DNA of 64,000 nucleotides from Bryopsis sp. KO-2023 (taxonomy: Eukaryota > Chlorophyta > Ulvophyceae > Bryopsidales > Bryopsidaceae), in assembly GCA_030272585.1 (NCBI GenBank), contig BSYQ01000002.1:310001-374000 (forward strand), given 5' to 3'. The first letter of the stretch is position 1, and every line of letters begins with the position of its first letter. A program made the position numbers and the translations under genes. Below are positions 37,691 through 60,700 of this stretch, piece after piece. Below the pieces are notes generated by a model. The model searched no databases, was not told the DNA's origin, and saw nothing but the letters and a program-made list of their open reading frames with translations.

Positions 37691-37747
37691 AAGCAGAAAA
37701 ATCCTCAGCTAGCAAGGGTGGCGACTGTTGATCTTGCTGGCTAAGGG

Positions 37748-38723: not shown

Positions 38724-40224
38724 CTAGATTTCCTTGAGCCGTTTCACAATTTTATCCTGCCACTCTTGGCCGTAATTCAACTTGGACTGGCCTTCAAGGA
38801 TATCCTCCCCGCCGCCGCCATGTTCGTGAAAGTCTTCCTCCACGAAAACTGCCTGCTCGACGCTGGATATGGGCCCAGCCAGCCGCCTCAGCCGCCCTGT
38901 TGCGATGTCGTATATCATTGCATGAACGTACAGCTCCTGGCCTTCTGCCCAAGCTGCTTGTACGACAGGGGTTGTGCAAACGTTGAACGCCTGTTCCACC
39001 GCGTTCGCTTCACAGAGCCTGGGGGAAACGTAAACGAAACAAACGAAACGAAACAGAAATTATACACACATATATCATATCGAAAACTCTGAACAGTCGG
39101 GCACATTCGCTCATGCAAAAACGAAACGAGCCAGTCACTCCCTGTTGAACGCTACACCCCCAACCCCTTGTGCCAAGTTCGCAGTCATGACTGACATCGG
39201 CACCGGTCAGACCGGTGGTGACCCTTTGTTTAGCGAACAAGAATCTAGGATTCATTTTAGGGATCATGCAGCGATCTCACTTGGACCAGCGTTGAGGCTC
39301 GTCCAACTGCTGGAGATCTTTGGCGTAAGCGTTGCGGACGTCCCTGATTGGGGAAATCCAGCTGTTGAGGATTCCACTCGAGTTCTGAGGGAGGTTGAGC
39401 GCTGCATCGACGGCGCCGCAGCCGTAATGCCCCCCAACCACCACATGTTTCACTCCCAGAGTAGATACGGAGAACTCCAGAGCGCTCATGAAGTTCATGT
39501 CTGTCTGCATGACGATATTGCCGACGTTTCTGTGGCAAAAGACGTCACCAGGACCGGTACCTGTGAAGAAGTTTGCCTAGTGGGGTTGAACAAACGGTTA
39601 AACGGTCAGCTGGGATAACACTGTGAAAAAATTCAATCGCCCCATTTGAGCTCGCAAAAAACACAAAAAGGGGGGGGGGGGGGGTTATTTCCCTGATGCT
39701 ATAGGCTCTGGCCTATAGACTCTGGCCTATAAACTCTGGCCTGTCATGTGTTTTTATGTTTCCGGTTGTTTGGTCTGACACAAAAAGAATCCACTGGGGT
39801 AAACTCAGCCGCTTACCAACACCCGTGCATCCGCGCAGCCAACCCAAAAGAACTCTGGTTGCTGCCCCTTAGCTAACTCTTTGAAGTATGTCGGCCTCTC
39901 GTCGTTGATTTTTTCCGCCCAATACCTTGCACAAAACGCATCCTCATACCCTCAATCAAAGTAACTGACATTAAGGGGGGTTTTTTGGCTTGGGTTTTTT
40001 CCCCAGATGCTATAGGCTCTGGTCAGAAATCTCGTGTAACGTTTTTGGTTGGTTGGAAAGAACTCATATCCGGGAAAATCGCAAGAACAGTGGCTAGCCA
40101 GCCGTCGACGCCGTTCTTTCATACATACCTGTTGTAATTCAGCAGCCGTTGAACGCTCGAAACGCCGTCCCACTTCTGGCCGCCGCCAGAACTCCCGTTT
40201 TCACCTCCAGCCGCCACCGCAAAC
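38724..40224 (-). CDS. Beta-carbonic anhydrase gene (first exon not found)
   Basis: Four exons joined by GT-AG introns encode the whole beta-class catalytic domain: 40224-40129, 39925-39817, 39576-39281 and 39018-38724 (stop TAG/TAA-class at 38724). Together they give ~265 residues. Exon 1 found here ends 'VQRLLNYNR'. Exon 2 gives 'YWAEKINDERPTYFKELAKG' and then the zinc/active-site block C-A-D-A-R, a variant of the usual CSDSR that keeps Cys and the Asp-Arg pair. Exon 3 carries 'PGDVFCHRNVGN' and 'VVVGGHYGCGA', which supply the other His and Cys zinc ligands. Exon 4 holds 'LCEANAVEQAFNVC' and 'LYVHAMIYDI'. The enzyme interconverts CO2 and bicarbonate. The glycine-rich start (residues 'AAGGENGSSGGG') and the phase-2 5' edge imply an upstream exon, possibly a targeting peptide, that I could not identify. 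Two of the three introns hold dispersed-repeat copies. Confidence 0.9.
39684..39773 (+). repeat. Dispersed repeat, copy 5, with internal triplication
   Basis: Forward copy lying in a carbonic anhydrase intron. The core 'ctatag-ctctggc' is present three times in tandem with a 17-bp period before the 'tgtcatgtg' part. Confidence 0.8.
39995..40056 (+). repeat. Dispersed repeat, copy 6
   Basis: Forward copy in the first resolved intron of the carbonic anhydrase gene ('ccccagatgctataggctct', 'tttttggttggttgg'). Confidence 0.8.
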
Positions 40225-40906
40225 CTGCAGATTTAAAAACCGATCATGTCACCCCCCCGTTTGGAAATGCATTTTCGTGCAGCTGATCGTGGACCGCGGT
40301 TTTGTGGCCGGTTCGAACCACAGAGCAGCCCGACCCGAGATTCACATGAATTGACCGGTCTTGGTTTTCAGTGCAACAGAGCGGCCGCACCCGCGATTCA
40401 CATGGATTTTTTCAAAAAACCAACCACGAAACCACGACTTTTCTTTTAGCGAACATGATAAAGAACGGTCATCTGGTCGGCGGCGCCGCCACAAGCCGCC
40501 GTTCCGAACCCCCGTTTTCGAGTAGCTACTACCTCCTCACGGCAGTCACGACACCACAGAGAAAACAGCCCAGCAAGGGTTCACCAGACGGCAAACGTTT
40601 CGCGCCGCCACCGCAAGCCCCCCAAAACCCGCTGCCTCCCGATAACTAGTGGCAAGAAAATCCCACAAGAAGACACCCGTTCGTCGAAACTTGAAAAATT
40701 CGCGCGACTCCTTTGAAATCGGCGGGCTTTATGCTCGGTAAACCTCTCCTTCTGGCCCGGTTGCGGAAAACGCTTAGCCCCTTTCACTCACTTAGCGCCC
40801 TGTCTCTGCAGCCGCCAGTAGGACCGATTTCGTGTCAATTTTCCACCAAGCGCCGCCAAATTCGACCTCATCGCCGCCGGTGGCTGTAGCTGCACGTGGA
40901 AAAAAC

Positions 40907-40960
40907 AGCCAAAAAAATATCACAAGACATACCAGGCCAGAGCCTGGAGCATCGGGGGAG
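40907..40960 (-). repeat. Dispersed repeat, copy 7
   Basis: Reverse copy ('cataccaggccagagcctgg', 'agcatcggggg'). Confidence 0.8.
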
Positions 40961-41120
40961 AAAAAAGTAAGAAAAACAGGTGGAAAACGCGCTTGCATGG
41001 TCCGCCACTTGATTCTTACAGCCAAATCGACATACCGGCAGCATTGCAAATCCATCCATCGTCTGAACACCCCGTGACTGTAAAGCAGGTGGGGGGGAAA
41101 TGCCAGGTCGTCCCACCTTT

Positions 41121-41169
41121 CAACCAAAACTGATACAATACGTTCCAGGCCAGAGACTATAGCACCAAG
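41121..41169 (-). repeat. Dispersed repeat, copy 8
   Basis: Reverse copy ('caaccaaaactgata', 'ccaggccagagactatagca'). Confidence 0.75.
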
Positions 41170-41284
41170 CGTGTCAAGCTGATTGAGGAGACGCTGTGGT
41201 TACGACAACCTTGGAGCAGAGCAGAATTGATCGTCGCACTCAATCATTCATTCATTAAGTCTTTCTGTCTGTCAGTCTGTATGT

Positions 41285-41340
41285 ATGTCAGTCAGTCAGC
41301 CATTCAGTCAGTCAGTCAGCCAGTCAGTCAGTCAGTCAAA
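41285..41340. repeat. (gtca)n microsatellite
   Basis: Tandem 'gtca' with a few 'gcca' variants. Confidence 0.9.
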
Positions 41341-41383
41341 AACAGTCGGTCATCTACCCCTTTCGGTCCTGTAGGTTTACCCC

Positions 41384-41444
41384 CGACCAACCAAAAATGT
41401 TACAAGCAATGCCAGGCCACAGTCTATAGAATCGGGGTGAAGAG
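41384..41444 (-). repeat. Dispersed repeat, copy 9
   Basis: Reverse copy ('ccaaccaaaaatgtta', 'tgccaggccacagtctatag'). Confidence 0.8.
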
Positions 41445-41541
41445 GGCTCCATCAAGCTTTTATTTTCATTTTCATTTCTTATTTTTTATTCTATTTTATT
41501 TTATTTTGTATATTGTATTTCCCCGCTGAAACAATTTCAGC

Positions 41542-41600
41542 AAACCACCAGCTAAAAGAATTACGAGACATGCCAGGGCAGAGCCCACAGCATCGTTGGG
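41542..41600 (-). repeat. Dispersed repeat, copy 10
   Basis: Reverse copy ('acgagacatgccagggcaga', 'gcccacagcatcg'). Confidence 0.75.
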
Positions 41601-41727
41601 TTACAAAAAAGCCAGGAAGGAGCTGAGAATCGAAAAAACCCTTAATCATCCCATACGATCATTGCTGCAAGGCCACCGGTTGGAAATCGAGCCGGTGTGC
41701 TAGGAAAGTACGAGCAAAACATCACAA

Positions 41728-41780
41728 ACCACCAAAAAAATATTACAAGACATGCCAGGCCAGAGCCTACAGCTCAAATC
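41728..41780 (-). repeat. Dispersed repeat, copy 11
   Basis: Reverse copy ('atattacaagacatgccagg', 'ccagagcctacagc'). Confidence 0.8.
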
Positions 41781-42339
41781 AAATTTCAGTTACAGGGTCA
41801 CATCATCCCCAGATGCTCATCCTTTCCAAACACGACCTGAAACTTTTTCCTTTCAGTTCCATGATCGCTGTGTAGAAAACACTTAGAAAAAATCAGTTCT
41901 ATGATCTACTAGTTTGGTTCAAACTGTGATTTCCACGACTCATTTGTCACACAGAAAGACCCATCTTCAGAACTTAAGTATGAAGATAACAAACGCAACA
42001 ACTACTCTAAGCATCCCTTGCCCCCGGGATGATTGAAACGGTCAGAATCCCAAAATAAAAAAAAAAAGAGGAAACATATTGCCAAACAAAAAACCGCACA
42101 ATTGTCTAAAAGCATTAAAAGTCCATTTCGGGCCATTCGTCCAAAACAGTTCATTGCTCTTTCTGCGCCTCAGACATGGAACAATGTTCCACTTATAAGT
42201 TTCGCCAAACAAGAAATCAAATTTACTCAAGGAGGTACGTTCCAGATATCTGTGCCCAGAGCAAGTTTCATGTATCCTCATGGTAGAAATTTGGCATCTG
42301 ACGTCAATGATACTATTCTCCTCATCAACCTGGAGTAGA

Positions 42340-45300
42340 TTATGGTGGCGGAGGAGTACCAGGTGGGGGAGCTGGTGTGGCTGGTGGAGGTGGAGGGGCC
42401 GGTGTGGCTGGTGGAGGTGGAGGGGCCGGTGTGGCTGGTGGGGGTGGAGGGGCCGGTGTGGCAGGTGGCGGTGTTGGAGTAGATGGTGGTGGTGTTGGTG
42501 TGGCAGGTGGGGGCGGAGCAGGAGTACTTGGAGGAGGGGCAGGAGTAGATGGGGGCGGAGCAGGAGTAGATGGGGGTGGAGCAGGAGTAGATGGGGGTGG
42601 AGCAGGAGTAGATGGGGGTGGAGCAGGAGTAGATGGGGGCGGAGCAGGAGTAGATGGGGGCGGAGCAGGAGTAGATGGGGGTGGAGCAGGAGTACTTGGA
42701 GGTGGGGCAGGAGTAGATGGGGGAGGAGCAGGAGTAGATGGGGGTGGAGCAGGAGTAGATGGAGTTGGGGCAGGAGTAGATGGGGGAGGAGCAGGAGTAG
42801 ATGGGGGTGGAGCAGGAGTACTTGGAGGTGGTGCAGGAGTAGATGGGGGTGGAGCAGGAGTACTTGGAGGAGGGGCAGGAGTCGATGGGGGTGGAGCAGG
42901 AGTACTTGGGGGTGGGGCAGGAGTAGATGGGGGCGGAGCAGGAGTAGATGGGGGCGGAGCAGGAGTACTTGGAGGTGGGGCAGGAGTAGATGGGGGCGGA
43001 GCAGGAGTAGATGGGGGCGGAGCAGGAGTACTTGGAGGTGGGGCAGGAGTAGATGGGGGTGGAGCAGGAGTAGATGGGGGTGGAGCAGGAGTAGATGGGG
43101 GCGGAGCAGGAGTAGATGGGGGCGGAGCAGGAGTAGATGGGGGTGGAGCAGGAGTACTTGGAGGTGGGGCAGGAGTAGATGGGGGCGGAGCAGGAGTACT
43201 TGGAGGTGGGGCAGGAGTAGATGGGGGGGGAGCAGGAGTACTTGGAGGTGGGGCAGGAGTACTTGGAGGTGGGGCAGGAGTAGATGGGGGTGGAGCAGGA
43301 GTAGATGGGGGTGGAGCAGGAGTAGATGGGGGTGGAGCAGGAGTACTTGGAGGTGGGGCAGGAGTACTTGGAGGTGGGGCAGGAGTAGATGGGGGTGGAG
43401 CAGGAGTAGATGGGGGTGGAGCAGGAGTAGATGGAGGTGGAGCAGGAGTAGATGGGGGCGGAGCAGGAGTAGATGGGGGCGGAGCAGGAGTACTTGGGGG
43501 TGGTGCAGGAGTAGATGGGGGTGGAGCAGGAGTAGATGGGGGTGGAGCAGGAGTACTTGGAGGTGGGGCAGGAGTAGATGGGGGCGGAGCAGGAGTACTT
43601 GGAGGTGGGGCAGGAGTAGATGGGGGTGGAGCAGGAGTACTTGGAGGTGGGGCAGGAGTAGATGGGGGCGGAGCAGGAGTACTTGGAGGAGGGGCAGGAG
43701 TCGATGGGGGTGGAGCAGGAGTACTTGGAGGTGGGGCAGGAGTAGATGGGGGCGGAGCAGGAGTACTTGGAGGTGGGGCAGGAGTAGATGGGGGTGGAGC
43801 AGGAGTAGATGGGGGTGGAGCAGGAGTACTTGGAGGTGGGGCAGGAGTAGATGGGGGTGGAGCAGGAGTACTTGGAGGAGGGGCAGGAGTCGATGGGGGT
43901 GGAGCAGGAGTACTTGGAGGTGGGGCAGGAGTAGATGGGGGCGGAGCAGGAGTAGATGGGGGCGGAGCAGGAGTACTTGGAGGTGGGGCAGGAGTAGTTG
44001 GGGGCGGAGCAGGAGTAGATGGGGGCGGAGCAGGAGTACTTGGAGGTGGGGCAGGAGTACTTGGAGGTGGGGCAGGAGTAGATGGGGGTGGAGCAGGAGT
44101 AGATGGGGGTGGAGCAGGAGTAGATGGGGGCGGAGCAGGAGTAGATGGGGGCGGAGCAGGAGTAGATGGGGGCGGAGCAGGAGTACTTGGAGGTGGGGCA
44201 GGAGTAGATGGGGGCGGAGCAGGAGTACTTGGAGGTGGGGCAGGAGTAGATGGGGGCGGAGCAGGAGTACTTGGAGGTGGGGCAGGAGTACTTGGAGGTG
44301 GGGCAGGAGTAGATGGGGGCGGAGCAGGAGTAGATGGGGGTGGAGCAGGAGTAGATGGGGGTGGAGCAGGAGTACTTGGTGGTGGTGCAGGAGTACTTGG
44401 AGGTGGGGCAGGAGTAGATGGGGGTGGAGCAGGAGTAGATGGGGGTGGAGCAGGAGTACTTGGAGGTGGGGCAGGAGTAGATGGGGGTGGAGCAGGAGTA
44501 GATGGGGGTGGAGCAGGAGTACTTGGAGGTGGGGCAGGAGTAGATGGGGGTGGAGCAGGAGTAGATGGGGGTGGAGCAGGAGTACTTGGAGGTGGGGCAG
44601 GAGTAGATGGGGGAGGAGCAGGAGTACTTGGAGGTGGGGCAGGAGTAGATGGGGGCGGAGCAGGAGTACTTGGAGGTGGGGCAGGAGTAGATGGGGGCGG
44701 AGCAGGAGTACTTGGAGGAGGGGCAGGAGTCGATGGGGGTGGAGCAGGAGTACTTGGAGGTGGGGCAGGAGTAGATGGGGGCGGAGCAGGAGTAGATGGG
44801 GGTGGAGCAGGAGTAGATGGGGGTGGAGCAGGAGTACTTGGAGGTGGGGCAGGAGTAGATGGGGGTGGAGCAGGAGTACTTGGAGGTGGGGCAGGAGTAG
44901 ATGGGGGCGGAGCAGGAGTACTTGGAGGTGGGGCAGGAGTAGATGGGGGTGGAGCAGGAGTAGATGGGGGTGGAGCAGGAGTAGATGGGGGTGGAGCAGG
45001 AGTACTTGGAGGTGGGGCAGGAGTAGATGGGGGTGGAGCAGGAGTACTTGGAGGTGGGGCAGGAGTAGATGGGGGTGGAGCAGGAGTACTTGGAGGTGGG
45101 GCAGGAGTAGATGGGGGTGGAGCAGGAGTAGATGGGGGTGGAGCAGGAGTACTTGGAGGTGGGGCAGGAGTAGATGGGGGTGGAGCAGGAGTAGATGGGG
45201 GTGGAGCAGGAGTACTTGGAGGTGGGGCAGGAGTAGATGGGGGTGGAGCAGGAGTACTTGGAGGAGGGGCAGGAGTCGATGGGGGTGGAGCAGGAGTACT

Positions 45301-48300
45301 TGGAGGTGGGGCAGGAGTAGATGGGGGCGGAGCAGGAGTAGATGGGGGTGGAGCAGGAGTACTTGGAGGTGGGGCAGGAGTAGATGGGGGTGGAGCAGGA
45401 GTAGATGGGGGTGGAGCAGGAGTACTTGGAGGAGGGGCAGGAGTAGATGGGGGGGGAGCAGGAGTAGATGGGGGTGGAGCAGGAGTAGATGGGGGTGGAG
45501 CAGGAGTACTTGGAGGTGGGGCAGGAGTAGATGGGGGTGGAGCAGGAGTAGATGGGGGCGGAGCAGGAGTAGATGGGGGCGGAGCAGGAGTACCTGGAGG
45601 TGGGGCAGGAGAACTTGGAGGTGGGGCAGGAGTAGATGGGGGTGGAGCAGGAGTAGATGGGGGTGGAGCAGGAGTAGATGGGGGTGGAGCAGGAGTACTT
45701 GGAGGTGGGGCAGGAGTACTTGGAGGTGGGGCAGGAGTAGATGGGGGTGGAGCAGGAGTAGATGGGGGCGGAGCAGGAGTACTTGGAGGTGGGGCAGGAG
45801 TAGATGGGGGTGGAGCAGGAGTAGATGGGGGTGGAGCAGGAGTACTTGGAGGTGGGGCAGGAGTAGATGGGGGTGGAGCAGGAGTACTTGGAGGAGGGGC
45901 AGGAGTCGATGGGGGTGGAGCAGGAGTACTTGGAGGTGGGGCAGGAGTAGATGGGGGCGGAGCAGGAGTAGAGGGGGGCGGAGCAGGAGTACTTGGAGGT
46001 GGGGCAGGAGTAGATGGGGGCGGAGCAGGAGTAGATGGGGGTGGAGCAGGAGTACTTGGAGGTGGGGCAGGAGTAGATGGGGGTGGAGCAGGAGTAGATG
46101 GGGGTGGAGCAGGAGTAGATGGGGGCGGAGCAGCAGTAGATGGGGGCGGAGCAGGAGTAGATGGGGGTGGAGCAGGAGTATTTGGAGGTGGGGCAGGAGT
46201 AGATGGGGGCGGAGCAGGAGTACTTGGAGGTGGGGCAGGAGTAGATGGGGGTGGAGCAGGAGTACTTGGAGGTGGGGCAGGAGTACTTGGAGGTGGGGCA
46301 GGAGTAGATGGGGGTGGAGCAGGAGTAGATGGGGGTGGAGCAGGAGTAGATGGGGGTGGAGCAGGAGTACTTGGAGGTGGGGCAGGAGTACTTGGAGGTG
46401 GGGCAGGAGTAGATGGGGGTGGAGCAGGAGTAGATGGGGGTGGAGCAGGAGTACTTGGAGGTGGGGCAGGAGTAGATGGGGGGGGAGCAGGAGTACTTGG
46501 AGGTGGGGCAGGAGTAGATGGGGGTGGAGCAGGAGTACTTGGAGGTGGGGCAGGAGTAGATGGGGGTGGAGCAGGAGTAGATGGGGGTGGAGCAGGAGTA
46601 CTTGGAGGTGGGGCAGGAGTAGATGGGGGTGGAGCAGGAGTAGATGGGGGTGGAGCAGGAGTACTTGGAGGTGGGGCAGGAGTAGATGGGGGTGGAGCAG
46701 GAGTACTTGGAGGAGGGGCAGGAGTCGATGGGGGTGGAGCAGGAGTACTTGGAGGTGGGGCAGGAGTAGATGGGGGAGGAGCAGGAGTAGATGGAGGTGG
46801 GGCAGGAGTACTTGGAGGTGGGGCAGGAGTAGATGGGGGTGGAGCAGGAGTAGATGGGGGTGGAGCAGGATTAGATGGGGGTGGAGCAGGAGTACTTGGA
46901 GGTGGGGCAGGAGTAGATGGGGGTGGAGCAGGAGTAGATGGGGGCGGAGCAGGAGTAGATGGGGGCGGAGCAGGAGTAGATGGGGGTGGAGCAGGAGTAG
47001 ATGGGGGTGGAGCAGGAGTAGATGGGGGTGGAGCAGGAGTACTTGGAGGTGGGGCAGGAGTAGATGGGGGTGGAGCAGGAGTACTTGGAGGTGGGGCAGG
47101 AGTAGATGGGGGCGGAGCAGGAGTAGTTGGAGGTGGAGCAGGAGTAGATGGGGGTGGGGCAGGAGTAGGTGGGGGTGGGGCAGGAGTAGATGGGGGTGGA
47201 GCAGGAGTACTTGGAGGTGGGGCAGGAGTAGATGGGGGCGGAGCAGGAGTACTTGGAGGTGGGGCAGGAGTAGATGGGGGTGGAGCAGGAGTACTTGGAG
47301 GTGGGGCAGGAGTAGATGGGGGTGGAGCAGGAGTAGATGGGGGCGGAGCAGGAGTAGATGGGGGCGGAGCAGGAGTACTTGGAGGTGGAGCAGGAGTAGT
47401 TGGGGGTGGAGCAGGAGTAGATGGGGGTGGAGCAGGAGTAGATGGGGGCGGAGCAGGAGTAGATGGGGGAGGAGCAGGAGTAGATGGGGGTGGAGCAGGA
47501 GTACTTGGAGGTGGGGCAGGAGTAGATGGGGGCGGAGCAGGAGTACTTGGAGGTGGGGCAGGAGTAGATGGGGGTGGAGCAGGAGTAGATGGGGGTGGAG
47601 CAGGAGTAGATGGGGGTGGAGCAGGAGTACTTGGAGGTGGGGCAGGAGTAGATGGGGGTGGAGCAGGAGTAGATGGGGGTGGAGCAGGAGTACTTGGAGG
47701 TGGGGCAGGAGTAGATGGGGGCGGAGCAGGAGTAGATGGGGGTGGAGCAGGAGTAGATGGGGGTGGAGCAGGAGTAGATGGGGGTGGAGCAGGAGTAGAT
47801 GGGGGCGGAGCAGGAGTAGATGGGGGCGGAGCAGGAGTAGATGGGGGTGGAGCAGGAGTACTTGGAGGTGGGGCAGGAGTAGATGGGGGCGGAGCAGGAG
47901 TAGATGGGGGCGGAGCAGGAGAACTTGGTGGTGGGGCAGGAGTAGATGGGGGTGGAGCAGGAGTACTTGGAGGTGGGGCAGGAGTAGATGGGGGTGGAGC
48001 AGGAGTAGATGGGGGTGGAGCAGGAGTACTTGGAGGTGGGGCAGGAGTAGATGGGGGTGGAGCAGGAGTAGATGGGGGTGGAGCAGGAGTACTTGGAGGT
48101 GGGGCAGGAGTAGATGGGGGCGGAGCAGGAGTAGATGGGGGTGGAGCAGGAGTACTTGGAGGTGGGGCAGGAGTAGATGGGGGTGGAGCAGGAGTACTTG
48201 GAGGAGGGGCAGGAGTCGATGGGGGTGGAGCAGGAGTACTTGGAGGTGGGGCAGGAGTAGATGGGGGTGGAGCAGGAGTAGATGGGGGTGGAGCAGGAGT

Positions 48301-51300
48301 ACTTGGAGGAGGGGCAGGAGTCGATGGAGGTGGAGCAGGAGTACTTGGAGGTGGGGCAGGAGTAGATGGGGGTGGAGCAGGAGTAGATGGGGGTGGAGCA
48401 GGAGTACTTGGAGGTGGGGCAGGAGTAGATGGGGGCGGAGCAGGAGTAGATGGGGGTGGAGCAGGAGTAGATGGGGGTGGAGCAGGAGTACTTGGAGGTG
48501 GGGCAGGAGTAGATGGGGGTGGAGCAGGAGTACTTGGAGGTGGGGCAGGAGTAGATGGGGGCGGAGCAGGAGTAGATGGGGGTGGAGCAGGAGTAGATGG
48601 GGGTGGAGCAGGAGTACTTGGAGGTGGGGCAGGAGTAGATGGGGGTGGAGCAGGAGTACTTGGAGGAGGGGCAGGAGTCGATGGGGGTGGAGCAGGAGTA
48701 CTTGGAGGTGGGGCAGGAGTAGATGGGGGCGGAGCAGGAGTAGATGGGGGCGGAGCAGGAGTACTTGGAGGTGGGGCAGGAGTCGATGGAGGTGGAGCAG
48801 GAGTACTTGGAGGTGGGGCAGGAGTAGATGGGGGCGGAGCAGGAGTACTTGGAGGAGGGGCAGGAGTCGATGGGGGTGGAGCAGGAGTACTTGGAGGTGG
48901 GGCAGGAGTAGATGGGGGCGGAGCAGGAGTAGATGGGGGTGGAGCAGGAGTAGATGGGGGTGGAGCAGGAGTACTTGGAGGTGGGGCAGGAGTAGATGGG
49001 GGTGGAGCAGGAGTACTTGGAGGTGGGGCAGGAGTAGATGGGGGCGGAGCAGGAGTACTTGGAGGTGGGGCAGGAGTAGATGGGGGTGGAGCAGGAGTAC
49101 TTGGAGGTGGGGCAGGAGTAGATGGGGGTGGAGCAGGAGTACTTGGAGGTGGGGCAGGAGTAGATGGGGGAGGAGCAGGAGTACTTGGAGGTGGGGCAGG
49201 AGTAGATGGGGGCGGAGCAGGAGTAGATGGGGGTGGAGCAGGAGTAGATGGGGGTGGAGCAGGAGTACTTGGAGGTGGGGCAGGAGTCGATGGGGGTGGA
49301 GCAGGAGTACTTGGAGGTGGGGCAGGAGTAGATGGGGGTGGAGCAGGAGTAGATGGGGGTGGAGCAGGAGTAGATGGGGGCGGAGCAGGAGTACTTGGAG
49401 GTGGGGCAGGAGTAGATGGGGGTGGAGCAGGAGTACTTGGAGGTGGGGCAGGAGTAGATGGGGGCGGAGCAGGAGTACTTGGAGGTGGGGCAGGAGTAGA
49501 TGGGGGTGGAGCAGGAGTACTTGGAGGTGGGGCAGGAGTAGATGGGGGCGGAGCAGGAGTACTTGGAGGTGGGGCAGGAGTAGATGGGGGTGGAGCGGGA
49601 GTACTTGGAGGTGGGGCAGGAGTAGATGGGGGCGGAGCAGGAGTAGATGGGGGAGGAGCAGGAGTACTTGGAGGTGGGGCAGGAGTAGATGGGGGTGGAG
49701 CAGGAGTACTTGGAGGTGGGGCAGGAGTAGATGGGGGTGGAGCAGGAGTACTTGGAGGAGGGGCAGGAGTCGATGGGGGTGGAGCAGGAGTACTTGGAGG
49801 TGGGGCAGGAGTAGATGGGGGCGGAGCAGGAGTAGATGGGGGCGGAGCAGGAGAACTTGGAGGTGGGGCAGGAGTAGATGGGGGTGGAGCAGGAGTACTT
49901 GGAGGTGGGGCAGGAGTAGATGGGGGCGGAGCAGGAGTACTTGGAGGAGGGGCAGGAGTCGATGGGGGTGGAGCAGGAGTACTTGGAGGTGGGGCAGGAG
50001 TAGATGGGGGCGGAGCAGGAGTAGATGGGGGTGGAGCAGGAGTAGATGGGGGAGGAGCAGGACTAGTGGGAGGTGGAGCAGGAGTACATGGGCGGGGATC
50101 AGGAGTAGATGGGGGAGGAGCAGGAGTAGATGGGGGCGGAGCAGGAGAACTTGGAGGTGGGGCAGGAGTAGATGGGGGTGGAGCAGGAGTACTTGGAGGT
50201 GGGGCAGGAGTAGATGGGGGCGGAGCAGGAGTACTTGGAGGTGGGGCAGGAGTAGATGGGGGTGGAGCAGGAGTACTTGGAGGTGGGGCAGGAGTAGATG
50301 GGGGCGGAGCAGGAGTACTTGGAGGTGGGGCAGGAGTAGATGGGGGTGGAGCGGGAGTACTTGGAGGTGGGGCAGGAGTAGATGGGGGCGGAGCAGGAGT
50401 AGATGGGGGTGGAGCAGGAGTACTTGGAGGTGGGGCAGGAGTAGATGGGGGTGGAGCAGGAGTACTTGGAGGTGGGGCAGGAGTAGATGGGGGGGGAGCA
50501 GGAGTACTTGGAGGAGGGGCAGGAGTCGATGGGGGTGGAGCAGGAGTACTTGGAGGTGGGGCAGGAGTAGATGGGGGTGGAGCAGGAGTAGATGGGGGCG
50601 GAGCAGGAGAACTTGGAGGTGGGGCAGGAGTAGATGGGGGTGGAGCAGGAGTACTTGGAGGTGGAGCAGGAGTAGATGGGGGTGGAGCAGGAGTACTTGG
50701 AGGTGGGGCAGGAGTACTTGGAGGTGGGGCAGGAGTAGATGGGGGTGGAGCAGGAGTAGATGGGGGTGGAGCAGGAGTAGATGGGGGTGGAGCAGGAGTA
50801 CTTGGAGGTGGGGCAGGAGTACTTGGAGGTGGGGCAGGAGTAGATGGGGGTGGAGCAGGAGTAGATGGGGGTGGAGCAGGAGTACTTGGAGGTGGGGCAG
50901 GAGTAGATGGGGGTGGAGCAGGAGTAGATGGGGGTGGAGCAGGAGTACTTGGAGGTGGGGCAGGAGTAGATGGGGGTGGAGCAGGAGTACTTGGAGGAGG
51001 GGCAGGAGTCGATGGGGGTGGAGCAGGAGTACTTGGAGGTGGGGCAGGAGTAGATGGGGGTGGAGCAGGAGTAGATGGGGGTGGAGCAGGAGTACTTGGA
51101 GGTGGGGCAGGAGTAGATGGGGGCGGAGCAGGAGTAGATGGGGGTGGAGCAGGAGTACTTGGAGGTGGGGCAGGAGTAGATGGGGGTGGAGCAGGAGTAG
51201 ATGGGGGTGGAGCAGGAGTAGATGGGGGTGGAGCAGGAGTACTTGGAGGTGGGGCAGGAGTAGATGGGGGTGGAGCAGGAGTAGATGGGGGTGGAGCAGG

Positions 51301-54300
51301 AGTACTTGGAGGTGGGGCAGGAGTAGATGGGGGCGGAGCAGGAGTAGATGGGGGTGGAGCAGGAGTAGATGGGGGTGGAGCAGGAGTACTTGGAGGTGGG
51401 GCAGGAGTAGATGGGGGCGGAGCAGGAGTAGATGGGGGTGGAGCAGGAGTAGATGGGGGTGGAGCAGGAGTAGATGGGGGTGGAGCAGGAGTAGATGGGG
51501 GCGGAGCAGGAGTAGATGGGGGCGGAGCAGGAGTAGATGGGGGTGGAGCAGGAGTACTTGGAGGTGGGGCAGGAGTAGATGGGGGCGGAGCAGGAGAACT
51601 TGGAGGTGGGGCAGGAGTAGATGGGGGTGGAGCAGGAGTACTTGGAGGTGGGGCAGGAGTAGATGGGGGTGGAGCAGGAGTAGATGGGGGTGGAGCAGGA
51701 GTACTTGGAGGTGGGGCAGGAGTAGATGGGGGTGGAGCAGGAGTAGATGGGGGTGGAGCAGGAGTACTTGGAGGTGGGGCAGGAGTAGATGGGGGTGGAG
51801 CAGGAGTACTTGGAGGAGGGGCAGGAGTCGATGGGGGTGGAGCAGGAGTACTTGGAGGTGGGGCAGGAGTAGTTGGGGGCGGAGCAGGAGTAGATGGGGG
51901 TGGAGCAGGAGTAGATGGGGGCGGAGCAGGAGTACTTGGAGGTGGGGCAGGAGTAGATGGGGGTGGAGCAGGAGTACTTGGAGGAGGGGCAGGAGTCGAT
52001 GGGGGTGGAGCAGGAGTACTTGGAGGTGGGGCAGGAGTAGATGGGGGCGGAGCAGGAGTAGATGGGGGAGGAGCAGGAGTACTTGGAGGTGGGGCAGGAG
52101 TAGATGGGGGTGGAGCAGGAGTACTTGGAGGTGGGGCAGGAGTAGATGGGGGTGGAGCAGGAGTACTTGGAGGAGGGGCAGGAGTCGATGGGGGTGGAGC
52201 AGGAGTACTTGGAGGTGGGGCAGGAGTAGATGGGGGCGGAGCAGGAGTAGATGGGGGTGGAGCAGGAGTAGATGGGGGTGGAGCAGGAGTACTTGGAGGT
52301 GGGGCAGGAGTAGATGGGGGTGGAGCAGGAGTAGATGGGGGTGGAGCAGGAGTAGATGGGGGCGGAGCAGGAGTACTTGGAGGTGGGGCAGGAGTAGATG
52401 GGGGTGGAGCAGGAGTACTTGGAGGTGGGGCAGGAGTAGATGGGGGAGGAGCAGGAGTACTTGGAGGTGGGGCAGGAGTAGATGGGGGTGGAGCCGGAGT
52501 ACTTGGAGGTGGAGCAGGAGTAGATGGGGGCGGAGCAGGAGTAGATGGGGGCGGAGCAGGAGTACTTGGAGGTGGGGCAGGAGTAGTTGGGGGTGGAGCA
52601 GGAGTACTCGGAGGTGGGGCAGGAGTAGATGGGGGCGGAGCAGGAGTAGATGGGGGTGGAGCAGGAGTACTTGGAGGTGGGGCAGGAGTAGATGGGGGAG
52701 GAGCAGGAGTACTTGGAGGTGGTGCAGGAGTCGATGGGGGTGGAGCAGGAGTAGTTGGGGGTGGTGCAGGAGTAGATGGGGGCGGAGCAGGAGTAGATGG
52801 GGGCGGAGCAGGAGAACTTGGAGGTGGGGCAGGAGTAGATGGGGGTGGAGCAGGAGTACTTGGAGGTGGGGCAGGAGTAGATGGGGGCGGAGCAGGAGTA
52901 CTTGGAGGTGGGGCAGGAGTAGATGGGGGTGGAGCAGGAGTACTTGGAGGTGGAGCAGGAGTAGATGGGGGCGGAGCAGGAGTACTTGGAGGTGGGGCAG
53001 GAGTAGATGGGGGCGGAGCAGGAGTACTTGGAGGTGGGGCAGGAGTAGATGGGGGTGGAGCAGGAGTAGATGGGGGTGGAGCAGGAGTAGATGGGGGCGG
53101 AGCAGGAGTAGATGGGGGGGGAGGAGCTGGCGTTGACGGAGGAGGAGGAGCTGGCGTGCTTGGAGGAGGAGGTGCTGGCGTTGATGGAGGAGGAGGAGCT
53201 GGGGTGCTTGGAGGAGGAGGAGCTGGGGTGGATGGAGGAGGGGGAGCTGGGGTGCTTGGTGCTGGCGTTGATGGTGGAGGAGTAGGGGTGGACGGCGGAG
53301 AGGCTTCTCTTGTTGTCTCGAGAAGAGAATCGGTTGCAGAACCTTGATATTCACACATAGAAAAAAATCCGGTATCAGACCAAGTTAGAGGCAAGATGAA
53401 AACAGAAACCTGATTATGTCGGAGATTGGGTGGGAGAGAGACTTCTGGTTGCCCATGAATGATGGATTTGTTGTTGCGGAAACCCTCAAAGACGTGGCCA
53501 ACTACCTGAAGTGTCATCCACAGTGACTTGTATACGGTTTCTCAGATCTTGTGTACCTAGGGTCAAGAAACACACAGTTTTAGGCACACAAGACTTCAGC
53601 TAAAGTGCTCTGCTTCACACCTCTAGCTTTAGGTGGCAGTTGTATCCTGCATCTATAGTATACGCGCCTCCTTCACAAGGATATCTCAACAGAACCTCAA
53701 TTGCCACGCAGTGTGATGCAAGATTTCTTTCCCTCCTGAAAGTCTGGACGTGGCTCCATCGACCCAATTTTTGGCCTACTCTCTGCCTCTCGCCCCCCCC
53801 CCCTAAAGCTCACAAGAAGAGTCTGACATGGAGCACTATGAAACTGCCTACCATGTTGTATATCAACCCTAACCCTCGAACCCAGAAAATGAGTGAGAGT
53901 GTAGTTTGCCCTTCTCGAACATAGTTAATCGACATTCTCAAGAAAACATGTGAACGAAAGCCAAAGAATAGGTCTTAGGGCTCTTTGGAGCTTGTTGGGC
54001 AGAACTGGAGCGTATGAATGCAAAAACACATGATTTTTCTGCTCCTTCGTATCCATCTGACGAATGCCTCATTGATTGAGACTTGAAAATAGGCCTCAGG
54101 AGCACACCCACAGCAAACGTACTCAAGTGTAAACAGGTGTCTAAGAATCCCTCCATTGGATTTCTAGGTAGGATGCTTACCATCAGTGCCGTCGTCGTCG
54201 TCAGAGCTGCTGATGCCTGTTCCCAACAGCAAAAAGTCAGGCCCATCACAACCAATCAAAAATATTACAAGACATGCCAGGGCAGAGCCTATAGCACCAT

Positions 54301-54453
54301 CAGGGGAGTACAAAGAGGGAACCCTGAGCCAGCAAGACATGCCAGCCCATCACAACTATTTCAGGAGAACAAAACGTTGGGCTGGGGATTCACACTAAGG
54401 AGAGAAGCTATGTAAGTTGCAAGCTCAGGAGAAGAGGTTTGACTGGGGGATAG

Positions 54454-54493
<40 letters not shown>

Positions 54494-56021
54494 GCAACAG
54501 AACTTCTAACCTATGTGCTACGTGAAGTTTTACCTTGAATTGCCTGCAAAGTTTCCGATGTCGTACTCACGCCGTCGTCGTCTGCACAAGGGCAAGAAGG
54601 GATATCAGAAAGAAACAACACATATAACCTTTTGTGTGGAAGCCATCAGGATGATTCACCCCAGAGCAAAATCAAAATCGATGAATGGACAAACGAAAAA
54701 ACAGTGGGTGCCTTCCCTCTTTCGCCCCCAAAACCAAAAAGATGACAAGATATCCCAGGCCAGAGACTACGGCATCGGGGGAGCACAAAGAGGAAACCCT
54801 CAGCTACCGAGGTTTATAACCCTGAATCAAGCATCCACTATGTGAGGGGAGCCATCCGACTCACCATTGTTTTCTTCGAGAGTCTGTCCCAAGGAAGTAG
54901 CCAGGTTGCCAAGACCGCTGTTGGTCTGTGTACCAGAGAAATCATTCAACCGGCTCTGTATCCCGCTGGTCTGACCGCCTCCGTCGTTTAGACCATCGTC
55001 CTGACCTGCTTGACCGTCTCCGCCTTGTGGTAGCGTCTGCCGAATGCCACCGGCATCATCGTTCTGCAGCTGATTCCTGAGGTTATCAGTACCCGACTGC
55101 CCGGAAACACCTATCGTTTAATCCACAGAACACAGCAGTCAGGTTTAGAGCAAAAGACTCCACCCCTGTTGTCACCGCAACAGGGCAGAGCAGTCAGGTT
55201 TTTAGAGCAGAAGAATTCACCCCTGTGGGGGTACCCACAGGGCAAAGTGATCAGGGTTAGAGCAGAAGTATACACCCTGGTAGGTCGAGGGGCGTCACAT
55301 TGCAACCGACCCAAAACATTACATGACACGCCCAGGCCAGAGCCTATAGCATCGGGGAAACACAAAGAAACAAACCAGCAAGCAGCCAGGAAGGTCCATA
55401 TATCGCTGTAAACCTTGTTTGTGTCATAACATTCACTAAACACTGCCAACCAGAAATATAACAAGACATGCTAGGCCAGAGCCTAAACACTGCCGTACAG
55501 TATTGCCTGCTCTTGTGTAAGCACCAAATCGTGGAATGGGGAAGGGGGGGGTTCGAATCGAAAATCTCCGGGAAGGATAATTTGCACTTCTTCCTCCGCC
55601 AGCGGTATCCGACGGTTTCTTGCCGTTCGACACGGTAAACTCCGTGCGTTTTTCCAAAAAAAAACTCCGCCGTTCACCGAGGGTTGACGGGGGTAGGCAG
55701 ATTCCTTCGATAGCGCACCGGTGGGCATCCGGTTTCGTGATTCCACGGCAAGAAACAACACTACTGCGGAAAACGTGTGGGGGGGGGGGGGATCGTGGAC
55801 GAAGAGTCCGGAGGGAAAAGAAAGCTGATGCGCGAGAGGTTTATCCCTCGGAGTTTGTCTACCACGTAAAAATGTACCTCAGATGAAAAGGTGGCCGGGA
55901 GATCAGAGCGGAAAACAGAACGAGGAAAGTTTCCATGCATGTCTTAACAAACCACGTTACCTGAGTTAGCGGCGAGCAACACCGCAAGCGCTAGCCACAG
56001 CGCGGAGCGGTTGGTTGTCAT
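42340..56021 (-). CDS. Giant secreted proline-rich (APPPSTP)n protein, six exons
   Basis: Assembled exons are 56021-55961, 55110-54865, 54581-54534, 54216-54181, 53556-53506 and 53342-42340 (stop TAA). All five introns are GT-AG and phase 1, and the sum is 3,815 codons including the stop. An in-frame TAA lies 12 bases before the ATG at 56021. Exon 1 is a signal peptide (MTTNRSALW, then a Leu/Ala-rich core, then 'AANSG'). Exon 2 adds ~80 residues rich in Gln, Gly, Asp and Asn. Exons 3 and 4 are short and both carry Asp-Asp-Asp-Gly runs. Exon 5 contributes 17 residues ('QDLRNRIQVTVDDTS'). The last exon codes six 8-residue APPPPSTP-type units, then ~500 units of APPPSTP, and ends in PPPPATP-type units. 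By composition this is a hydroxyproline-rich extracellular-matrix or wall glycoprotein; proline hydroxylation and O-glycosylation are inferred. No membrane anchor or globular C-terminal domain is seen. The exon joins rest on splice signals and phase only, and another small exon in the 624-bp fourth intron is possible. Confidence 0.8.
42520..53290 (-). repeat. 21-bp coding minisatellite, about 510 units
   Basis: The unit encodes APPPSTP. There are two main DNA versions. One writes serine as TCT (plus strand 'gtagatgggggtggagcagg'), the other as AGT (plus strand 'gtacttggaggtggggcagg'). A third, rarer pair uses 'gtcgatg' next to 'ggaggagg'. Third-position changes are common, but amino-acid changes are rare (scattered TTP, SSP, GTP, NTP, and one strongly altered patch near 50045-50110). 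The plus strand is almost entirely purine with T and little C, so strand asymmetry is extreme. Confidence 0.95.
53291..53341 (-). other. Non-repeat N-terminal part of the giant exon
   Basis: It encodes 'SATDSLLETTREASP', joining the last intron to the first proline-rich units. The acceptor 'atatcaag' at 53343 keeps phase 1 with the preceding exon and follows a T-rich tract. Confidence 0.65.
54248..54320 (-). repeat. Dispersed repeat, copy 12
   Basis: Reverse copy in intron 3 of the proline-rich gene, ~30 bp from the acceptor of the 36-base exon. Confidence 0.85.
54455..54490. repeat. (ca)n microsatellite
   Basis: About 17 uninterrupted CA units in intron 3 of the proline-rich gene. Confidence 0.95.
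54729..54799 (-). repeat. Dispersed repeat, copy 13
   Basis: Reverse copy in intron 2 of the proline-rich gene ('cccaggccagagactacggc', 'atcgggggagcacaaagagg'). Confidence 0.85.
55302..55370 (-). repeat. Dispersed repeat, copy 14
   Basis: Reverse copy in intron 1 of the proline-rich gene. Confidence 0.85.
55446..55487 (-). repeat. Dispersed repeat, copy 15 (partial)
   Basis: Reverse copy in intron 1, ending after 'ggccagagccta'. Confidence 0.75.
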
Positions 56022-56623
56022 CTTCCCTGCTTATATCCGAGGGTCCCGGGGGTAGTAGAGAATCGGCAGCCCTTCACTTCGTCGAAACGTCCGAGATCTC
56101 CTTGACCAACCAACGCCCGTCGCTGTTTTGCGGCAGAAAAAAGGGGGTGGCTGATTCAGCCCGACCTAACCCTTCGCTGTCTCAAAAGACTGCGCGGTTT
56201 GTTTTATGATAAAACCTCCAGGTTTTCGTTAGTCGTGCAGCGAGGCGTCGACAATGGGGGGCCACGACCGGCGAGGAAAATCCAAATGCAAGGGGCCGAG
56301 AGCTGTTGTCCACAGAGATTGCTCCGTGTTGAACAACGGTCGAGAGCTTGCACATGATGTCATGGACATTCTGGTTGAGTGGTGGTGGAGACTACACTGC
56401 CGTTTACTGCGTTTACTCCATCCCCACGACGAATCTGGTCCGCTAATGAGGTTATTCACTGACGCTGAACGGTGAATCCCACCTGCTGGCAAGTACGACT
56501 TCTGGTGAACCATCCAGACACCGCGCTGGATGCTCCAAGCTTGCGAGCTTGTAATGGTTTTTCTTTGTATTTCCTCGACGCCACAGTCTGGCCTGGGGTG
56601 TCTTGTAATGAACATGGTTGGTG
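56022..56623. other. Upstream region of the proline-rich gene
   Basis: No coding sequence seen. On the minus strand 'ggatataagc' lies only ~10 bases before the ATG, too close for a usual TATA box. Dispersed-repeat copy 16 is at its far end, abutting the tyrosine-recombinase element. Confidence 0.4.
56558..56623 (+). repeat. Dispersed repeat, copy 16, cut by a retrotransposon
   Basis: Forward copy that runs to 'catggttggtg' and stops exactly where terminal repeat A1 of the tyrosine-recombinase element begins. Confidence 0.7.
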
Positions 56624-56832
56624 AACCACTAGTTATGGAATGCATCAAAGAGGAATGAAGTGAGTACAGTTATTTTGTCAGTAAGGAATTTGGGTGGGAA
56701 TTTCCTAGCTGAGTGGCCAGCTAGGAAGGCATCAGAATGCCACTGTGTGGTTGTGAGGCTAGCACTACAGATGTAGTGTTTCCTTACCTCCCCCTTAAAA
56801 AGGCAAGGAAAAGGGGGAGAGTAACTTATTTT
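56624..56832 (+). repeat. Split direct repeat A1
   Basis: 209 bp starting 'aaccactagttatgg', ending 'gagtaacttatttt'. Identical by eye to 61043-61251. It contains inverted motifs 'tcctagctgagtggccagct' and 'ctccccctt-aaaagg'. Confidence 0.9.
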
Positions 56833-56890
56833 ATTTGTCCCGTTCGCGCCAGAACGTTCCAACCGCCGCCGACGGCGTGCTATCCCCTTC

Positions 56891-57703
56891 ATGGGTGACG
56901 CTCTTAAACAAGAGCTTGAAGCGTTGATTACATCCCAGCTGCAGGCGTTGCGCGCGGAGCTATCAATCCCAGTTCCGCCCTCCCCTGCCGAAGAAACCGG
57001 TCGGGCCAGGACTTCTCGAGGGGTACTGCAGACGTGGTATACGAAACTCACCGGTGACCCTCCGCCCACTTCGTCCACCGAGTGTGCGATTGGCAGCCCC
57101 ACTGAGCTCCGCCATTTTCCAGGGAACCCCGTGCCCAGGCCAGAAGGGATAAAAGATATCGGCATCCAATTCGATATCACACGGACTTCTTACGGCCAGT
57201 CTCTCAACGGCCTCGCCAAAGGGTTTTTCGCGGAAGTGAAGAGGTGGGCCCCCGCTGTTTCCTTTTTATTCGACTCCGTCTGCAGCCTCCTGGGAATCCT
57301 CGCTGCCCCTGATACACCGGACACAGTGCTCAACGCTACCTCGGGGGTGACTCTCTCCCTGGTCGAAGTCCTCAACCAAGCAGTACGCTCGCTCCGCGTA
57401 CACGAATTCCGAGCCTCGCACGGAGCCCATTTCGCGGAAGCCGTGGACAGCCACCTTGTCCTCCGTGGCCAACAAGCCACCTACGCCCCTGACGACATCA
57501 ACGCCTTGGAGCAGGCCCTTTTACAGAGCCAGACGTCAACCGTCGCCAAGGAAGCCGCGAAAGCTCGTGCGCAAGCCGTTCTCGGACAGGACCAACCCAA
57601 GGGATCCCGTCGTGGAAAGGGAAACAAGGGCCGACCTCGCTCCTCTTCCAACCAGTTCCGTGCCAGTGACCCCTCCCCATCTGCCCCTGCCCCTGACGCA
57701 TGA
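56891..57703 (+). CDS. gag-like frame of tyrosine-recombinase element
   Basis: A 270-codon frame in the first position, where DIRS-order elements carry gag. The N-terminus is helical-looking, the middle has a hydrophobic segment, and the tail is basic and Ser/Pro-rich (nucleic-acid-binding type). It ends 10 bp before the pol start. Assigned by position and composition. Confidence 0.7.
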   Translation: MGDALKQELEALITSQLQALRAELSIPVPPSPAEETGRARTSRGVLQTWYTKLTGDPPPTSSTECAIGSPTELRHFPGNPVPRPEGIKDIGIQFDITRTSYGQSLNGLAKGFFAEVKRWAPAVSFLFDSVCSLLGILAAPDTPDTVLNATSGVTLSLVEVLNQAVRSLRVHEFRASHGAHFAEAVDSHLVLRGQQATYAPDDINALEQALLQSQTSTVAKEAAKARAQAVLGQDQPKGSRRGKGNKGRPRSSSNQFRASDPSPSAPAPDA

Positions 57704-60700
57704 GCCGTCGGCATGTTCCCCGACGCCCCACTGGCGTCGGCTTCTCCGCCAGCTCGCTCCTCAAGCCGCTGGCGACGCCGCCTCGCCCGTCTGGACCCCA
57801 CCAACCAATTTCCCTATCACAGGATTCGCACCCGTCTCGCGGCCTGGCGCCGGATAGGGACAGGAGCGACAATCCTCCGTTGGTTTCAAAACGGAGTCGA
57901 GCTCCCGTTGACCCAGGACCCTCCCCCGTTCCACCGCGGTACGACTCACCTCGATCCCGAGAGTCGTCACGCCTGGGAGAATATCGTCAGACCCCACTAC
58001 CTCCAAGCGGGTGCGATCGTCCCAGTGACCCACGCTCGCCATGTGAGCCGCGCCTTCCTGATCCCCAAGGACCCAGCGCGCACCCAGTGGCGCCTCGTGA
58101 TCGACCTGCGCCCCTTGAACCGGTTCCTCGCCCCACTTCCCCTGAAGCTCGCCAACCTTCGCAGCCTACCTCCCCACGTTCGCCCTGGTGCCCACCTTCT
58201 GATGTTCGACATCGCGGACGCGTTCTTCCATGTTCCCCTGAGCCCTCACGCCAGCTCCCTGTGCGTGTTCTCCCTCGACGGCCAATTGTACCGTCTCCCC
58301 GCTCTTCCCTTCGGTCTCGCCTCCTCGCCTTTCTTCTTCCAGAAAGCGATGGCTCCCCTGCTGGCGTTCCTGAGGAATCCTCGAGCCCAGTGCCCATGCC
58401 CACCACCTTGGATGCCCGCAGCCAAAGCGATTTGGTCGCTGGACTTGCCGCCCTTTGTTCTTCAGTATTTGGACGACTTCCTCCTGGTCCACGAAGATGT
58501 GCCAGCCCTGCGTCGCCTGGGCCTCCTGATCCCAGCGCTGTTGGAGGAGTTGGGAGTGACCCTGCGCCTGGAGAAGTCGTGCCTCGTTCCAGTTACGCGT
58601 CGCAAGCACTTGGGCCTCCTCGTCGACCTGGACGCACAGACATTCGGGGTTCCTCCTGCGCAACTGGAGAAATTGCAAGTCGTGGCCCAGAAGTTACTCA
58701 CCCTGCGCCACCCCCCTGTCAAACTCATTCTACGTTTTACCGGGATTGCCAATTCATTGTGCCTCGCGATCCGTCCCACGAGGTGGTACTTACGTCACCT
58801 CTACAATTGCGTGAAGACTGCGCAATGTGCATCGACAACCCTGACACCCCAGGCGAAGACCGAGCTTCAGTTTTGGATGCACCTCCCCCTTGCTCTCCAG
58901 TCCACTCCTTTTGCCCCTCTTCCCAATGTGTTCCTCCTCCACACCGATGCCTCGCTGGAGGGCTGGGGGGCCACACTTTCGGACCTGACCCGCCCCAAGG
59001 AGATCGTTTGCAGCCGCGGATTTTGGACCTTCCAGGAGCGGCAGGCGCACATCAACGAGCTGGAACTGCTGGCGGTCCTGCGTGCCTTGGAGACGTTCCG
59101 ATCCCAACTCTCCCAGCGCCAGTTACACCTGAAGACAGACAGCCAAGTTACCATGCACGTCCTGCGCAACCTGACGTCCCGGTCACCCCGCCTGCATTCC
59201 CTCTTGGGTCGTGTCCTCGACCTCATTTTATTCGAGCGCATCACTCTCGACTTGGCGTGGCTCAAGTCGAGCGAGAATTCTCTCGCCGATGCACTCAGTC
59301 GTCAGCAGGATGCGGACGACTACATGCTGCAACCAGCACTGTTCCAACACCTGGACCGCGCCCTGGGCCCCCACTGTATCGACCGCTTTGCCACCCCGGA
59401 GAATGTCCTGGTCCAGTCGGGCCGGTTCAACTCTTTGTGGCCTCGGAGCGGCAGCGAGGGAAACGCGTTTGCCTCAGCTACCTGGAGCGAGACCAACTCA
59501 TGGTGCAACCCCCCCTGGTCCCTGCTTCCCCGCCTTACCCCCTTCTTCCTCCAGTTTCCGAGCCTCCACGTCTCCCTGCTGGTGCCGAAGTGGACGTCAG
59601 CCCCATGGTGGCGCCCCTTGCAGCGCCTGGCGTGGCTCCAGGTGTTTCTTCCTGCCCAACCCCAGATGTTCGTGTCGGGCCGCTCAGCGTGTGCGCTGGA
59701 CCGTCCCTCCTGGGACCTGGTGCTCTTTCGGTTGGACTGGCCACAGCCGTGGCCCCACCTGCGTCTGGATCTTCTGCCCTCACAATTTCCGTGCCTTTTC
59801 ACACAAGACTGGGTGCCTCCTTCAATCCTGCCCCCACCTGGCCTCCGTTCACCACTCCTGACTTCGTGCCCCTCCCGGGCATGCTGAGCCTGTCGTCCGT
59901 GGAGCGCGACGCGATTCTCTCTTCCCTGTTCTCTTCCAATGCCCCCACCGGTCGTCAAAGTATTGTTACCCGGTTCCGAAAATTCTGGAAGTATTGCGCC
60001 TCGCTCCAGCTGCCCCCTGTGCCCTCGTCCGAACATCGCGTGGCCGCTTACGTCTTGTGGCTGCAGCGCGAAGGCAAAGTCTCAGTCAAGTCGGCCGGCC
60101 AGTATCTGTCCGCTGTCTCGACGGTTCATCAATGGCTGGGCGTGGACTTCTCGGCCCACTCCCTCACCATCGGTCGCCTCGTTCAAAGCTGGACGCTTTC
60201 TTCAGCCCCTGCCCTCTCCACGGACGCCGTCCTCGCCTTCCCAGCCTCCGTCATCTGGACCCTGCTCATCGACGCCATCGACGCCTCCGACGTCCTCAAA
60301 GTCCGGGCCGCTCTCGTCTGCGTCCTGAGCTTCGTTTTCTTCAATCGTTGTGACACGACCCGGAGCCTGTGTGTCGATGACTTCACGGAGGAGGATGTAT
60401 TCCTCGTCTACCGGGAACGCGAGTTCAAACGGAAGCGTGTGGAATCCTCGACCTGCCGAGTCCGACGTTTCTGTGCCGAGCACTGTCTGGAGCTATTTCA
60501 ACTCTACAATCACTACGTGGCCCTTTGGCGTGGCGCCTGGCACCCCGACCGACGACCGACCAACCTCCTGCGCTTACCGGGCGAGCCTGCTCCGACGTCT
60601 CGCACTGTGGCCAGCATCTTCAATGCCGCCTCGACCTTCTGGGCGTCTTCCTGGCCTGTGCGCATGACGCCACACTCGCTGCGCCGTGGTGGCGCAACGT

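Follow-up and report, generated by a model that had tools for sequence, protein, structure and literature searches.

A length-setting role has been proposed for the mastigoneme protein MST3 of Chlamydomonas, whose 42 repeats of 19 nm would limit the filament to about 800 nm; the protein is described with 8572 residues, a probable signal peptide and proline-rich repeats that run to thousands of residues (PMC11015965). The serine-aspartate (SD) repeat arrays of staphylococci, such as the R domain of ClfA, mix the TCN and AGY classes of serine codon; ClfA is described with a bacterial 18-bp Ser-Asp unit that carries both classes within one unit, with 63 repeats in the described strain, 25 of them exact (PMC3324548). 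Slippage and recombination are the presumed means of growth of the coding serine repeat of dentin phosphoprotein, which uses both TCN and AGC/T in the anole and almost only AGC/T in mammals (PMC2803795). The two sets of serine codons are disjoint and a tandem change is needed to pass between them, as PMC6872785 discusses. Here we analyse a stretch of 64,000 nucleotides from the green alga Bryopsis sp. KO-2023 (assembly GCA_030272585.1, contig BSYQ01000002.1, positions 310,001 to 374,000 of the forward strand), hereafter the window and numbered from its own first letter, whose minus strand holds a tandem array encoding the heptad APPPSTP with its serine written in both classes, TCT and AGT. We propose, with a probability of about 0.7, that the array belongs to a gene for a giant secreted proline-rich rod whose mixed founder block, holding both spellings, was copied in blocks, without serine being under exceptional selection. 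We regard the case as large, though for the most part ordinary.

The array comprises 10584 bp, read on the minus strand from 53103 to 42520, as 504 in-register units of 21 bp with zero insertions or deletions, far above chance (Tandem Repeats Finder (TRF) score 14797). There are 34 distinct DNA units, the top three at 178, 142 and 90 copies; 483 units encode APPPSTP, and the remaining 21 comprise APPPSSP (seven), APPPTTP (six) and eight singleton types. Codon 5 is TCT in 291 units, AGT in 181, TCG in 21 and ACT in 7, with TGT, CCT, AAT and GGT once each, giving 312 TCN units in all, and AGT units are found all along the array (18 to 25 per 63-unit bin over eight bins). Other codons are close to single use: threonine is ACT in 495/504 units, the fourth residue (Pro4) CCA in 501 and the seventh (Pro7) CCT in 500. 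Summed per site, minor unit-sites number 530 at third positions, 375 at positions 1 and 2 of codon 5 and 13 at the other 12 sites; codons 1 to 3 account for 503 of the 530, codon 5 (TCG) for 21 and codons 4, 6 and 7 for 6. Sites 3, 9, 13 and 14 vary together almost without exception (T-C-TC in 306/504 units, C-T-AG in 171/504), giving two haplotypes of the unit, GCT..CCC..TCT and GCC..CCT..AGT. A preliminary description of this DNA had placed some 510 units in 42520-53290; the array is real but ends at 53103, and a different repeat occupies 53104..53283. Its observations that the minus frame reads APPPSTP almost without exception and that the TCT and AGT unit types are interspersed both hold, and its remark that differences sit mostly at third positions is correct as a total, with the qualification that they are concentrated in codons 1 to 3.

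The array probably encodes the repeat region of a giant, rod-like, secreted proline-rich protein from a eukaryotic gene, to judge from a putative model of six exons (Table 1). A TATA-like GGATATAAG lies immediately upstream of exon 1, the five putative introns are all GT..AG and all in phase 1, and the spliced frame has a single, terminal stop. The predicted product has 3814 residues, of which 2092 are proline and 3528 belong to the array. Both the exons and the signal-peptide-like start of exon 1 were picked by eye, so the agreement in frame supports the gene model and is no test of it. A Pfam search with the 163-residue N-terminal, non-repeat part returned 0 families at E up to 1.

The order of the units points to growth in blocks. 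Repeated words of 6 to 12 units exceed a first-order Markov expectation in 300/300 runs and a second-order one in 289 to 299/300; for words of eight units, 104 repeated pairs compare with a first-order mean of 15.8 (reached in 0/300 runs) and a second-order mean of 41.1 (2/300). Marker units keep their context, type 'd' following 17/19 'e' units and type 'a' preceding 6/6 'g' units. Adjacent AGT-AGT pairs number 10, where 5000 permutations give a mean of 64.8 and a minimum of 47; TCN-TCN pairs number 137. Of the 10 AGT-AGT pairs, 6 fall within three occurrences of a single local context, aabbaaabb. At 306 bases, the array's longest exact repeat implies that the copied blocks are not all recent. 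We ran a neutral block-duplication simulation with six founders and five mean block sizes (300 runs each), counting as successes those runs that ended with an AGT (A) fraction of 0.28 to 0.45, at most 14 AA pairs and at least 100 TT pairs. Mean blocks of one or two units gave 0/300 for all six founders and a mean of 4 gave 0 or 1; the four founders with isolated AGT units gave 43 to 64/300 at a mean of 8 and 122 to 167/300 at a mean of 16. A strictly alternating TA dimer was rejected as founder, with at most 10/300 successful runs at any block size.

We envisage a founder block that would have held both unit types, with each AGT unit flanked by TCT units. Unequal crossing-over or slippage would then have copied many units at a time, as the unit order suggests; silent and replacement sites would mostly have been homogenised together, and both linked haplotypes, hence both serine classes, would have spread over 10.6 kb. 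The two spellings are best explained by a mixed founder block copied in this way, rather than by unusually strong selection on serine. Of the two origins offered in the preliminary description, early founding of two unit types that were amplified together is accordingly the one that site linkage, repeated words and the neutral simulation bear out.

The other origin was strong protein-level selection, taken here as purifying selection that would hold the entire APPPSTP unit while its DNA is free to drift, with the two serine classes as its signature. It was to be recognised by an excess of silent change in the APPPSTP frame only, and we applied such a frame test to this array alone, taking the six commonest units as parents and counting each change once in every distinct rare sequence (28 such sequences in 43 units; transition weight 2). 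In the APPPSTP frame silent changes make up 27 of the 44 rare ones, where a fraction of 0.325 is expected (p 8e-5), which speaks for selection, as do the 504 units without an indel; but the plus-strand frame GVDGGGA comes close at 25/44 against 0.318 (p 5e-4), and the other four frames show no silent excess (2 to 5 of 44). Because the GVDGGGA and APPPSTP frames share third positions, the test cannot isolate the latter, and it separates two frames from four rather than one from five. Moreover, 14 of the 27 silent changes, at sites 3 or 9, only substitute the base found in the other haplotype, and once such founder-state changes are set aside the remaining 30 divide into 17 replacement and 13 silent (p 0.14; ratio of replacement to silent rates, dN/dS, about 0.63). 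A cleaner comparison, which avoids founder differences, takes silent sites 12, 18 and 21: these are nearly frozen, differing in 6/1512 unit-sites against 13/6048 at the replacement sites of codons 1 to 4, 6 and 7 (p 0.25), or against 24/7056 when the two replacement sites of serine are added (p 0.64). Serine is in fact the least conserved residue, position 5 being non-Ser in 11/504 units and position 6 non-Thr in 9/504, with 0 to 2 replacements at each of the other five; per site, Thr (9/1008) and Ser (11/1008) change no less than the silent sites (Ser versus silent, p 0.046). Of the replacements, 7/11 at the serine position are Thr and 8/9 at the threonine position are Ser, and since the two positions swap with each other in this way, exceptional selection on serine is not required to account for TCT versus AGT. 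Strong selection on the whole protein is not supported, and we consider selection on the whole unit a doubtful explanation of the two spellings.

Several results nevertheless weigh against the block-copying reading, some of them by favouring selection. The excess of repeated words is weaker under the second-order null, which reaches the observed values for k = 6, 8, 10 and 12 in 11, 2, 1 and 5 of 300 runs, and the founders and block sizes of the simulation were chosen by hand with no fit, making it a plausibility check. When events are counted by hand, the 12 replacement sites show 7 and the silent sites 5 (rate ratio about 0.35, p 0.07). Under a split of Pro/Ala from Ser/Thr devised after the data were seen, the Pro and Ala replacement sites differ in 4/5040 unit-sites against 6/1512 at silent sites (p 0.013), or in 4 hand-counted events against 5 silent (p 0.035). 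Pro2 and Pro4 are invariant (504/504), and all unit types with at least 12 copies encode APPPSTP. It is likely that the proline scaffold is truly under purifying selection, and a fair reading is that the scaffold is constrained and the hydroxyl residues, Ser and Thr, are interchangeable, serine not being held constant.

The AGT class may have arisen inside the array or have come from the neighbouring repeats. That TCN and AGY cannot interchange by one silent change is so, but the either-or drawn from it in the preliminary description leaves out two single-base steps through threonine (ACT), whose intermediates are present. A network of single-base steps joins 32/34 unit sequences and links the main types via APPPTTP units, along a path from GCT..CCC..TCT (178 copies) to CCT..TCT (1) or CCC..ACT (2), then to CCT..ACT (1), CCT..AGT (3) and GCC..CCT..AGT (142); with these threonine intermediates present, a TCN-to-AGY switch via a tolerated threonine is mutationally open. 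One version of the block-copying reading has the AGT class arise once in the 21-bp array by this route (TCT to ACT to AGT) before being amplified, and we rate it somewhat short of an even chance. Beyond the path itself and the 7 units with Thr at the serine position, it draws on what the two array classes share, namely a T-ending serine, ACT and CCT, which set them apart from the neighbouring AGC/TCA units and, being absent from the AGC units, favour an in-array switch or a crossover within a unit; a single crossover of that kind could also yield the shared 3' half. The path intermediates stand at 1 to 3 copies each, and some may be recombinants. In the adjacent 24-bp repeats, moreover, TCN and AGC are already mixed, the serine codons running TCC, TCA, AGC, TCC, AGC, TCA, AGC, TCA, TCT in order (the first just upstream of 53283), and the presence of both classes beside the array, together with a hybrid last 24-bp unit (TCT ACT CCT), favours inheritance from these repeats. 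The spacing of AGC there is not significant alone, with 3 non-adjacent among 8 serines and a probability of 20/56 by hand count.

At 50059..50100 on the minus strand, units 143 and 144 (counted from 0) are an adjacent DPRPCTP and APPPTSP with four changes each, which may reflect either mutations clustered locally or an error in sequencing; their sequences are the only two of the 34 outside the single-step network.

Three further explanations would remove the question or recast it. Four of the six frames are long open reading frames (ORFs) across the array, so an open frame is weak evidence for that frame, and the plus strand offers an ORF of its own (42377..53347, 3656 aa). Were this the real product, a glycine-rich GGGAGV(D/L) protein, the unit types would differ as Asp or Leu and the serine puzzle would be gone; third positions vary silently in that frame as well. 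It is on the minus strand, however, that a signal-peptide-like start and a consistent chain of phase-1 exons enter the array, and the plus-strand ORF starts within the 3' run-out repeats and stops about 60 bases past the last repeat, which, with no systematic search for plus-strand exons, makes this product very improbable. An assembly artefact, with the array collapsed or inflated, ranks barely higher: unit order and copy number come here from the assembly alone, but no frameshift occurs across 10.6 kb, and reads well above 306 bases should resolve an array with no longer exact repeat. We rejected, as the least credible of all, the idea that both serine codons are kept to split the translation of more than 500 serines between two serine tRNAs. 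The spacing apart of AGT units would suit it, but that spacing also emerges from the neutral block model, and the near-constant Thr and Pro codons show no such sharing of demand.

The features of the window are collected in Table 1.

Table 1. Features of the repeat gene and its surroundings, in window coordinates.
Feature	Position	Strand	Description
Putative exon 1	55961..56021	minus	start codon, signal-peptide-like MTTNRSALWLALAVLLAANS, GT donor; frame runs on through the putative exons
Putative exon 2	54865..55110	minus	246 nt, AG/GT boundaries, phase 1 both ends; Gln/Asn/Asp/Gly-rich
Putative exon 3	54534..54581	minus	48 nt, AG/GT boundaries, phase 1 both ends
Putative exon 4	54181..54216	minus	36 nt, AG/GT boundaries, phase 1 both ends; contains SSSDDDDG
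Putative exon 5	53506..53556	minus	51 nt, AG/GT boundaries, phase 1 both ends
Putative exon 6 (last)	42340..53342	minus	11003 nt, proline-rich repeats, AG acceptor, TAA end; ORF 42340..53517
Adjacent repeats	53104..53283	minus	six 24-bp APPPPSTP units and three shorter; TRF period 48 over 53113..53259
Hybrid junction unit	53104..53127	minus	last 24-bp unit, with array-type TCT ACT CCT end; marks start of 21-bp array
Main array	42520..53103	minus	21-bp units, 504 in all (483 APPPSTP); TCT and AGT haplotypes, each of linked sites
3' run-out	42343..42519	minus	proline-rich units with Ala (GCC) mostly for Ser (APPPPPATP and similar), then APPPGTPPPP
Retroelement	56624..61459	plus	reverse transcriptase, RNase H and weak Dam matches in 57713..59884
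Ty3-like retroelement	31652..36702	minus	capsid, protease, reverse transcriptase and integrase matches; two overlapping long ORFs
Beta-carbonic anhydrase gene	38727..39950	minus	PF00484, E 1.3e-27 for 39283..39576; apparently with introns; downstream of repeat gene
Tandem repeats	38137..38365		five near-identical 46-bp copies, about 0.4 kb past putative 3' end of carbonic anhydrase gene

The neighbourhood of the repeat gene is eukaryotic, with a Ty3-like element, a DIRS/PAT-like element and an apparently intron-bearing beta-carbonic anhydrase gene. The element on the plus strand, which we take to be DIRS/PAT-like, ends about 600 bp upstream of the putative start codon of the repeat gene and carries direct repeats of 209 nt (56624, 61043) and 117 nt (60931, 61343); its frame at 57700..60900 has a weak SAM-like integrase match under the Pfam cut-off and no PDB match at E up to 0.01. 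The Ty3-like ORF has no match among phage records, and the best hit of the carbonic anhydrase, 1ddz, is a two-domain protein, which raises the score, and gives no guide to lineage. No tRNA (ARAGORN) and no Rfam family at gathering score was found in the window. The window also contains 13 copies, with at most 3 mismatches (0 expected) and in both orientations, of a short interspersed sequence around CTCTGGCCTGGCATGTCTTGTAA; these copies span 37066..63718 (for example 54265, 54743, 55459 and 41743), and three putative introns of the repeat gene hold copies.

With four prolines per heptad, the array is expected to form a polyproline-II rod rather than a compact fold, and at the polyproline-II rise of 0.31 nm per residue the 3528 residues of the array would extend about 1.1 micrometres. 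The product is likely such an extended rod, bearing many hydroxyl residues that are predicted to be O-glycosylated, and it may serve as a spacer or as a shaft of the wall or extracellular matrix whose length tracks repeat number. A stronger form, in which the protein acts as a molecular ruler, a polyproline-II rod about 1.1 micrometres long, and the array keeps every single-base intermediate of a TCN-to-AGY switch via Thr, we consider unlikely; if it were true, a codon-class switch could be reconstructed inside one gene. If the gene model is true, this is a very long and perfectly in-register array of proline heptads, and its 504 units record block growth within a gene. The array offers a concrete case for asking whether switches of serine class use a tolerated threonine or a double substitution. 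It also carries a caution, in that silent third-position differences in tandem arrays can be founder differences multiplied by copying rather than evidence of selection.

The string APPPSTP was not found in the open-licence PubMed Central (PMC) papers searched, and no similar description turned up in combined searches of them. Relatives sought by DNA pattern were rejected (2 viral contigs for a two-unit pattern, 1 Chloroflexi contig for a three-unit pattern); read in context, the pattern matches L001 and L003 are APPPTTP and L002 is three TCG-serine units, which is uninformative. Dentin phosphoprotein is an unrelated protein with an acidic SSD repeat. The SD-repeat adhesins are defined by Ser-Asp and an 18-bp consensus, whereas the unit here has 21 bp and Asp is missing from 503/504 units; and where ClfA has both serine classes within one unit, here there are two whole-unit types of a proline-rich unit. 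Of the marks of the broad class of hydroxyproline-rich glycoproteins, namely proline-rich repeats with Ser, Thr or Ala, a secretion signal, and hydroxyproline with O-linked glycans, the predicted product has the repeats (2092/3814 Pro), which makes it a candidate member, and extensins and SPn proteins such as agglutinins are described as secreted proteins of plants and algae with Pro-rich, Ser-containing repeats, as here (PMC3149072). The repeats of MST3, as its description gives them, are long and complex with a P13, P11(XXP)3 pattern that is absent from the simple APPPSTP heptad; even so, MST3 is the nearest described analogue in mode of action that we found, sharing with the Bryopsis product thousands of residues of repeated proline-rich sequence; MST3 has a likely signal peptide, and the putative start here is signal-peptide-like by eye.

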